NCBI GenBank assembly: GCA_021770845.1
Contig: JAETQF010000009.1
Span: forward strand, 1-64,000
DNA from: Oscillospiraceae bacterium
GTDB taxonomy: Bacteria; Bacillota; Clostridia; Oscillospirales; Oscillospiraceae
Length of the DNA stretch: 64,000 nt
Reading direction: 5' to 3'
Shown here piece after piece: positions 40,731 to 46,363 of this stretch. The first letter of the stretch is position 1; every line of letters begins with the position of its first letter. The position numbers and the translations under genes are program-made. The notes beneath the pieces were generated by a model. The model had not been told where the DNA came from and searched no databases. It saw only the letters and a program-made list of their open reading frames with translations.

Positions 40731-41240
40731 TTATGAATGTTGATTATGGAAACAATCTTCTGCCCATTTGGCTGGATTGGAATCAATATATTCCCAGATT
40801 CTTCGGTAATCTTCGCTATTTCTAATGATGTGGTCGTAAAAAGAACGTTGAAACAGCCTTGTGTCACATTTGCATGACCGGGTTATCATTGATTTTAGAA
40901 CGCCGATGATGGTTGGTACTGTAGGGGAGGGGCTTGCCCCTCCCGCCGGGGACAAATTTTCTGTGCGTCCCGATAGACGAAGGATCAGATGGACATGGTT
41001 TGGCATAATAACATATTTTTCAACAGAAACGGAAGGAAAACGGGAATTTAAAAGGCAAATCTGGGTTTCTGTAATTTTACCGTAATGCGTTAACCTCACA
41101 ACGGGAGGGGCAAGCCCCTCCCCTACAATGCTCGACAATACACATTGCCGATCTTGGGTACATATTGTGATGAAATATGCACCGGCAGAACCATAATCGT
41201 ACCCCTTCAACCTGGTCGGTTTTCTTTGCGGCAAATCCAT
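40731..41240 (-). CDS. REP-associated tyrosine transposase (RAYT, Y1 family)
   Basis: A 169-residue single-domain HUH nuclease-like protein. [20 protein letters not shown], the metal-binding HVH of [11 protein letters not shown], and the helix [16 protein letters not shown] are typical Y1/RAYT motifs. Two REP-like palindromes lie inside the frame and are translated as GEGLAPP and [10 protein letters not shown] (about residues 41-47 and 99-108), exactly where RAYT relatives vary in length. It lies between the T-box terminator (24 nt upstream) and ileS (13 nt downstream). RAYTs cut REP hairpins rather than moving their own gene; activity here is untested. Confidence 0.9.
40921..40947 (+). repeat. 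REP-like palindrome, copy 1 (inside RAYT)
   Basis: A palindrome of GGGAGGGGC, TT, GCCCCTCCC with a conserved flank GTAGG on the left and GCC on the right. Copies at 41102, 46287 and 46339 share the core and flanks. It lies within the RAYT coding frame. Confidence 0.88.
41102..41126 (-). repeat. REP-like palindrome, copy 2 (inside RAYT)
   Basis: The same core as copy 1 in reverse orientation, CGGGAGGGGC, AA, GCCCCTCCCCTAC. It lies in the RAYT frame, so the two copies point towards each other. Confidence 0.88.
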
Positions 41241-41263
41241 TTCGTTATTTCACCTGCATCATC

Positions 41264-41551
41264 AAAAAACGCCCCTGCCCCCAAACGGAGACAAAGGCGC
41301 AAACCCCTGCGGTACCACTCCCATTCCGCGCAATGCGCGGCACTCGCGCGTCCGGTAACGGGGACTTCCGGCGGAGCCTACTGACCGCGGGGGGCGCGGC
41401 GTTCGATCCGCGGCTCACAGGGGATCTTCGCCGGGGCCGCCCCGCCGCCCTCGCACCATGCGGGCGGCTCTCTGGGAGGAGGTTTGCCGGTTACTCGTCC
41501 TGCTCACAGCCTTATGAGATAGCGCCCGCCCCGTCAAGGAGCGGACGCTAT
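41264..41551 (-). promoter_or_regulatory. T-box leader specific for isoleucine
   Basis: On the minus strand an upstream hairpin (41519-41551) is followed by Stem I elements in canonical order: GACGAGTA (41499-41492), CAGAGAGCC (41475-41466), GGTGCGAGG (41457-41449) and the specifier region GAAGATCCCC with the Ile codon ATC at 41425-41423. The antiterminator T-box reads GGGAGTGGTACCGCAGG (41322-41306). A 13-bp terminator with T-run occupies 41264-41299. Uncharged tRNA-Ile would disrupt the terminator and allow transcription of RAYT and ileS. Confidence 0.94.
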
Positions 41552-41553
41552 TT

Positions 41554-41582
41554 ATATTATAGGCGAATCGCAAATTTGTCAA
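41554..41582 (-). promoter_or_regulatory. Promoter of the T-box leader
   Basis: On the minus strand TTGACA (41582-41577) is followed by TATAAT (41561-41556, 15-nt spacing) overlapping TAATAT (17-nt spacing). The leader starts a few bases beyond. Confidence 0.8.
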
Positions 41583-44504: not shown

Positions 44505-44717
44505 TCAGCCGGGGAGATCGGCGCGGCCCAGGAGGTAGTCGGTGGTGACGTCCAGATAATCCGCGATGGCAACCAGCGTTTCATAGTCAGGGCGGCGTCT
44601 GCCAGCTTCATAATACTGGTAAGCGCGGGGTGTCATTTTTAGATGCTCCGCCACTTCTTTTTGCATAACCCCTTTTTGAGTACGCGCCTGTCTCAAACGA
44701 TCTGCAAATGGTACCAT
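44505..44717 (-). CDS. Small HTH regulator (XRE/Cro type)
   Basis: A 70-residue protein consisting almost entirely of one HTH domain, with KGVMQKEVAEHLKMTPRAYQ and YLDVTTDYLLGR. The ATG at 44717 is preferred; AGGAG lies about 10 nt upstream. It is divergent from the DUF6809-type gene and the shared intergenic region carries a TTGAC-ACA-GTCAA palindrome over the plus-strand -35, so autoregulation or repression of the neighbour is likely. Confidence 0.85.
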   Translation of the reverse strand: MVPFADRLRQARTQKGVMQKEVAEHLKMTPRAYQYYEAGRRRPDYETLVAIADYLDVTTDYLLGRADLPG

Positions 44718-44733
44718 ATTTTTTCGTCTCCTC

Positions 44734-44762
44734 TTGACACAGTCAAGTTGTTCCTGTATAAT
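44734..44762 (+). promoter_or_regulatory. Consensus promoter with an operator-like palindrome
   Basis: TTGACA (44734-44739) and TATAAT (44757-44762) have 17-nt spacing, a perfect sigma-A promoter. The palindrome TTGAC-ACA-GTCAA (44734-44746) covers the -35 box. Confidence 0.85.
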
Positions 44763-44808
44763 CGAAGTGAACAAACCGACTGTATAGCTGGTGAAAGGGG
44801 TCACGATC

Positions 44809-45066
44809 ATGACAGATTTAATGGAAGCCCTGTTTACCTACGCCCAGGAGCACAGCGTCGCGCCTCTCCTGGCCGAGGAAGGGGCGTACAGGAGCAGCAT
44901 CTGCTGCGCCGAGCGGCAGGAGGAACAGCTCCGGGCGGCGCTGGACGAACAGACCTCCGCCCGGCTGGACGCCCTGCTGCGGGAGCAGGATCTGGCCCGG
45001 TGGATCGAGGAGCGGGCGGCGTTCCGCGCCGGCTTCCGGATGGCGCTGGAGCTGGCCCGGTCATAG
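44809..45066 (+). CDS. DUF6809-like small protein
   Basis: An 85-residue, Ala/Glu/Leu-rich, wholly helical soluble protein (MTDLMEALFTYAQEHSVAPL ... FRAGFRMALELARS). It resembles the DUF6809 proteins seen beside small HTH regulators in Clostridia; function unknown. GAAAGGGG precedes the ATG at 44809. Its 3' end overlaps the thiI 3' end by 6 nt, tail to tail. Confidence 0.75.
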   Translation: MTDLMEALFTYAQEHSVAPLLAEEGAYRSSICCAERQEEQLRAALDEQTSARLDALLREQDLARWIEERAAFRAGFRMALELARS

Positions 45067-46286: not shown

Positions 46287-46363
46287 GTAGGGGAGGGGCT
46301 TGCCCCTCCCGCCTTGAAGGGTCAGAGACCCTTTCCCACGGGAGGGGCAAGCCCCTCCCCTAC
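46287..46363. repeat. Head-to-head pair of REP-like palindromes (copies 3 and 4)
   Basis: Copy 3 (46287-46313) has the GTAGGGGAGGGGC/GCCCCTCCC form of the RAYT copies and copy 4 (46339-46363) is its inverse, 25 nt apart. The pair lies between comF and thiI and resembles a BIME-type unit. Confidence 0.88.

Follow-up and report, generated by a model that had tools for sequence, protein, structure and literature searches.

Does a transposase gene that lies between an isoleucine T-box leader and ileS owe its place to amino-acid control, or is it one of several genes that come and go there? The question is raised by positions 40,731 to 41,582 of the window, i.e. the whole stretch of 64,000 nucleotides analysed here from an Oscillospiraceae bacterium, where a REP-associated tyrosine transposase (RAYT, TnpA_REP) gene takes this position. 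The reading that we favour, and consider rather probable, is that the RAYT is an exchangeable passenger in the expected T-box-ileS transcript, and that its gene carries its own inverted pair of target REPs and its product handles the REPs of the genome. Below, G000 denotes the genome under study, and G060 and G002 its two nearest sisters.

Organisation of the locus

On the minus strand, a promoter-like site, an isoleucine T-box with an ATC specifier, a terminator, the RAYT gene and ileS follow one another in this order:

41582-41554, minus strand: promoter-like site, TTGACA-17-TAATAT, 10/12 matches, identical bases in sister G060
41516-41284, minus strand: isoleucine T-box leader, RF00230 model positions 1-219, 88.7 bits, E 7.9e-20 (value for a search of 801 bases)
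41425-41423, minus strand: specifier codon ATC (Ile), read off the RF00230 alignment as GAA-G-AUC
41300-41264, minus strand: intrinsic terminator, stem 41300-41269 with 14 pairs, T-run to 41264
41240-40731, minus strand: RAYT (TnpA_REP) gene, an open reading frame of 169 aa, with HUH at residues 82-84 and an invariant Y151
40717-37937, minus strand: ileS, Pfam tRNA-synt_1 E 3.4e-137, ATG at 40717-40715

The leader is not returned by a default Rfam scan, since its 88.7 bits lie just below the gathering score of 93. We kept the T-box name because the RF00230 covariance model is matched over its whole length and the specifier suits ileS; a T-box sequence and a terminator complete the element. T-box leaders with a matching specifier upstream of synthetase genes are an established arrangement (RF00230; the accessible text of PMC2494555), which ileS shares here, and the same text already records synthetase genes that take a later position in their T-box operon. 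In contrast to those operons, the first gene here is a transposase without evident link to isoleucine, and the content of the slot depends on the species. Our searches of the open-access literature returned no T-box-controlled RAYT.

The preliminary description of this DNA had placed a RAYT gene between an isoleucine T-box with an ATC specifier and ileS, all in the same direction, and the RF00230 match, the terminator and the reading frame bear this out. Of the 24 and 13 nt that it gave for the gaps, the second stands (RAYT stop to ileS ATG, 13 nt), while for the first we count 23 nt between T-run and RAYT ATG. AAAGGAG is found upstream of the ileS ATG. The same description had named an assembly error and an internal promoter as possible objections. 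An assembly chimera is unlikely, since the locus lies inside a contig of 89,781 bases and its flanking genes are common to relatives. Concerning the promoter, we found no strong promoter-like site besides that of the leader, but a weak one (9/12 matches) lies within the RAYT gene at 41101-41074 on the minus strand and might conceivably act as a second ileS promoter. Scanning both strands of the locus stretch gave 6 promoter-like sites, against a mean of 0.8 in shuffles.

With this arrangement, a single transcript would be expected to start at the promoter and to cover the T-box leader, RAYT and ileS. Uncharged tRNA-Ile would stabilise the antiterminator, with RAYT and ileS being read through when isoleucyl-tRNA is short, as we infer from the known behaviour of T-boxes. 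Judged by its position, the RAYT gene shares isoleucine T-box control with ileS.

The RAYT protein

The family assignment is based on fold, motifs and REPs, and the protein is not claimed as an exact equivalog, because its match to NCBIfam REP_Tyr_transpos (E 7.4e-17, 61.6 bits) falls under the equivalog cut-off of 80; the match to Pfam Y1_Tnp is weak (13.8 bits against a cut-off of 23). A profile of 74 sequences, comprising this RAYT and 73 relatives, matched one solved structure, the TnpA_REP 4er8 (E 2e-12). The same structure, a TnpA_REP with a REP hairpin, was the top fold match of the predicted model (mean pLDDT 88.7; E 9.5e-9), and the protein thus resembles a solved TnpA_REP both in sequence and in fold. 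H82, H84 and Y151 are invariant among the 74 sequences, giving the HUH motif and a tyrosine that is presumably catalytic. The gene looks intact, and no further copy of it turned up in the G000 genome (82% complete).

Two matched REPs inside the RAYT gene

The RAYT frame holds two GTAG-tagged REPs in inverted order, on either side of the part that codes for the HUH core:

41126-41103, minus strand: internal REP 1, GTAG plus palindrome, coding for residues 39-46 (VGEGLAPP)
40921-40944, plus strand: internal REP 2, an inverted copy of REP 1, coding for about residues 99-107

In the predicted model, the two REPs code for two loops, residues 39-46 and about 99-107. The second loop lies between strand 82-89 and helix 108-123, i.e. 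beta3 and alphaC when the RAYT is named by comparison with the accessible part of PMC6006769, and this is the site of the in-frame REP in subclass 2.4. In the profile alignment to 4er8, 7 residues are left out at the second loop; the first loop is unaligned, and the N-terminal part of the alignment is not significant.

We rejected the idea that internal REPs are unreported, as in-frame REPs in such genes have been published. According to the part of PMC6006769 that is accessible, tnpA_REP genes of subclass 2.4 (RAYT group 4) contain REPs within the frame, generally between HUH and Tyr, and the frame stays unbroken. Our gene is alike in this respect and may be likened to subclass 2.4 by the position of its in-frame REP. 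It differs in having a second REP before the HUH motif and in that the two REPs form an inverted pair. The gammaproteobacterial REPtrons, as presented in the available text of PMC2817692, also tie an inverted pair of cognate REPs to a RAYT gene and have many genomic copies, and their flanking REPs co-evolve with the gene; in REPtrons the REPs always flank the gene, whereas here they lie inside it. Indeed, no inverted REPs flank this gene in the window, where the next REP copy is at 46290. Our search of the open-access literature returned no case of matched REPs set as an inverted pair on both sides of the HUH core, although the supplementary figures of PMC6006769 may show one; the accessible part of PMC12306157 does not mention RAYTs.

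One may object that the internal palindromes arose by coincidence from the coding sequence, or are inserted REPs that serve no function in the RAYT gene, given that in-frame REP insertions are known in many other genes (PMC3733652, in the part available) and that the accessible text of PMC6006769 suggests little effect on the protein. A comparison among RAYT genes speaks against this. The set consisted of 81 genes, that of G000 and the best 80 of 129 loci ranked by likeness, of which 78 were usable once L080, L093 and L095 had been dropped. An inverted match of at least 12 nt between region 1 and region 2 was found within 55 of the 78 genes, as compared to 425 of 6006 between-gene pairs, and none of 10000 permutations reached the observed within-gene sum. 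Shuffling synonymous codons left a mean of 1.05 genes with an inverted match (maximum 4, observed 55). Moreover, Val-Gly stands at the REP site in 65/78 genes and is coded GTA GGG in 65/65, while elsewhere in these genes GTA makes up 160/781 of the other valine codons and GGG 190/751 of the other glycine codons. The reading phase is largely shared as well (GTAGGG 67/70, CCCTAC 67/72). With the same two regions used, mostly in the same phase, a within-gene match far above that between genes, and a codon choice that shuffling does not reproduce, we regard coincidence or inert insertion as very improbable.

The remaining 23 of the 78 genes have no inverted match of 12 nt, and the same REP occurs within 400 nt outside the RAYT gene in only 6 of the 55 matched genes. 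For the enzymes that the available part of PMC8266576 describes, the GTAG tag is important in binding or cleavage. Within the genus, matched internal REP pairs are also present in the RAYT genes of G020 and G008; the RAYT gene of G011 has a stop inside and lacks the second REP, and G009 and G023 hold RAYT fragments only. Placed in two coding loops, inverted target REPs would keep enzyme and target linked whenever the gene moves. The matched internal pairs also represent a ready set of enzymes and targets with which the continued matching of RAYTs and REPs can be studied.

REP copies in the genomes

We found 48 exact copies of the GTAG-tagged REP of this RAYT in G000, two of them inside the gene. 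Inverted pairs (REPINs) account for 34 of the 48 copies, in 17 pairs whose starts are 47-50 nt apart, and one REPIN lies in the window:

46287-46363, no strand assigned: REPIN, two inverted REP copies with a 29-nt spacer

REPINs could be pictured as internal deletions of the RAYT gene. We discarded this idea after comparing by eye 10 distinct REPINs at loci L002-L031 (loci had been assigned for 30 of the 48 sites); their spacers (26-29 nt) are unlike the 158-nt interior of the gene.

Elsewhere, exact copies of the G000 REP number 31 in G011, 6 in G019, 6 in G060 and 3 in G017, with one copy in each of 5 other genomes and none in 32 of the 42 genomes, including sister G002. REP number does not track this RAYT alone, because G011 has its 31 copies even though its own RAYT gene holds the stop and bears a different REP 1. 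The RAYT of Chakrabartyella piscis has a REP with 51 matches (up to 1 mismatch) in its own genome, which reduce to 28 places given the near symmetry of the pattern; in seven other genomes it has 0 matches. Likewise, the REP of the RAYT of Pseudoflavonifractor An184 has 34 matches (up to 2 mismatches), compared with 0 to 4 in seven others. Such a RAYT need not go with many REPs: G068, whose RAYT bears almost the same REP as that of An184, has only 3 copies, two of them at its own RAYT. In the three genomes tested (G000, C. piscis and An184), the internal pairs match the REPs of the genome. The RAYT probably handles the 48 copies of its own genome, and may mobilise them.

In the genome of L086, four copies of the C. 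piscis REP stand at exact 150-bp steps (C1:3316890-3317360), possibly as a tandem array.

Contents of the T-box-to-ileS slot across the genus

We surveyed 42 genomes of the same genus, 38 of which have an ileS start, and compared the upstream DNA of the other 37 with that of G000. A T-box motif precedes ileS in 37/38, being absent in G015. Counting the slot as empty when the motif lies within 149 nt of the ileS ATG, we found 11 empty slots, 4 non-coding ones, 1 without recognisable T-box, and 22 with coding passengers, which belong to 11 types. An XRE/DUF6809 pair and one GNAT type occupy five slots each, a nuclease-like protein three and DUF6487 two; the RAYT, another GNAT, a NUDIX protein, an aminoacyl-tRNA editing domain, DUF1349, an 80-aa zinc-ribbon-like protein and a GIY-YIG-like protein are found in one genome each. 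Two of the GNAT genomes have a second passenger. When one member of each type except the RAYT was scanned, Pfam supported both GNATs, DUF1349, tRNA_edit, DUF6487, NUDIX and HTH_3, with the slot copy of DUF6809 scoring under the cut-off. The single members scanned of the remaining three types gave no Pfam match, and we take them to be nuclease-like (PD-(D/E)XK-like), GIY-YIG-like and zinc-ribbon-like.

RAYT relatives occur in 6/42 genomes of the genus, and the slots of the other 37 genomes examined contain none. On the ileS tree, the slot changed state at least 17 times (12 without the non-coding and T-box-less slots). We found no variable passenger slot behind T-boxes in the open-access literature. 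In an order-level comparison covering 17 of 23 genomes, 0/17 ileS upstreams had a T-box motif, a weak result given that 15/17 matches do not start at ATG. In G004, G029, G024, G012 and G030, ileS is 56-58% identical to that of G000 over the matched part, with a T-box motif 94-297 nt before it, and an old replacement of ileS is possible there.

The sisters indicate how the RAYT may have reached its place. G060 and G000 are nearly identical from the end of the upstream gene through promoter, T-box and terminator to the T-run, and then diverge; after the slot, ileS of G060 again matches G000 at 279/290 bases (96%). Both sisters hold the XRE/DUF6809 pair in the slot. On the ileS tree, G000 groups with the XRE-bearing G002 (98/85), and the XRE-bearing G060 comes next, at a poorly supported fork (92/44). 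Because both sisters carry this pair, the RAYT is most simply seen as a replacement of other cargo, and not as a gene that split an intact T-box-ileS unit. The cargo could have been exchanged by recombination, within the conserved T-box/terminator at one end and the 5' end of ileS at the other, in which case the swapped segment would be bounded by the terminator and ileS, as a few bases suggest: the 15 bases before the ileS start are the same in G000, G031 and G063 and differ from those in G060 and G002, a likeness that might be a faint trace of segment exchange.

Two statements of the preliminary description have to be revised accordingly. It regarded the T-box directly upstream of ileS as the normal arrangement, which the coding passengers in 22 of 38 genomes do not support, and it spoke of an insertion between T-box and ileS, where the sisters have the XRE/DUF6809 pair.

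A divergent XRE regulator/DUF6809 pair, the same kind of gene pair as in the slot of five relatives, is also found in the window at 44505-45066.

Is the slot special, and is the RAYT kept for isoleucine control?

A RAYT kept behind the T-box because starvation-timed REP handling, or a domesticated function, is useful would fit the short gaps, the possible ribosome-binding site, the shared direction, the HUH motif and tyrosine, and the want of a strong promoter-like site other than that of the leader. Yet a RAYT fills the slot in 1 of 38 genomes and other cargos do so elsewhere, and the neighbouring spacer is as plastic: the prmA-to-T-box spacer underwent 13 state changes, against 13 for the ileS slot, on the tree of the same 30 genomes, its states being crude calls of open reading frames that include antisense frames. 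The slot as a special insertion hotspot is therefore not supported. The region appears plastic overall, so that neither a special attraction of the T-box nor selection for isoleucine control is shown, and adaptive capture seems improbable to us. The earlier view of a domesticated transposase captured by amino-acid control is thus unsupported as stated.

Other T-box leaders of the genus also precede passengers. A loose search (E up to 1) gave ten T-box matches in G000, none above the cut-off; it also matched in 7/14 control genomes, so the weakest of the ten may be false. The pheS leader of G000 (L183) is separated from pheS by a reading frame of 77 aa without Pfam family. With a looser motif, a T-box was detected in 32/36 pheS upstreams examined in the genus and in 31/38 tyrS upstreams, and for each of the two genes the distance to the motif exceeded 160 nt in 21 cases; several distances above 900 nt may be chance matches. 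Passengers at these T-boxes include GNAT relatives, and several tyrS passengers are of like length and look inherited, not swapped. These counts suggest that short passenger genes frequently follow T-box leaders in this genus, so that coming first after a T-box says little about what a gene does here.

Passengers at the ileS, pheS and tyrS T-boxes, the equal turnover of the prmA-to-T-box spacer and a slot cargo without common theme would all agree with a RAYT that settled at a place where a gene of the same direction hardly disturbs an essential operon, its T-box control being incidental. We give this neutral account about an even chance. Taken alone, it does not account for the matching of the REPs, nor for their being more numerous than in the two sisters; we prefer the exchangeable passenger that brings its own target pair and handles the REPs of its genome. 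A stronger version would have isoleucine starvation switch REP movement, with the T-box gating a RAYT whose in-frame target pair serves as a self-contained seed, and arrival in the slot having raised the REPs to 48 from about 6, the level of G060; we consider this improbable. The three close relatives offer a natural comparison, since one of them has its RAYT in a slot under starvation control and far more REPs than the others.

Among the passengers, that of G061 (L161), an aminoacyl-tRNA editing domain protein (PF04073, E 7.2e-32), could make functional sense in front of ileS. Finally, three RAYT relatives (L062:2666-4513, L116:386-2038 and L137:2813-4489) share one open frame with a tRNA nucleotidyltransferase/poly(A) polymerase gene upstream (Pfam PolyA_pol, tRNA_NucTran2_2); in them a CCA-adding enzyme may be fused to the RAYT, or else a start lies hidden inside the frame.
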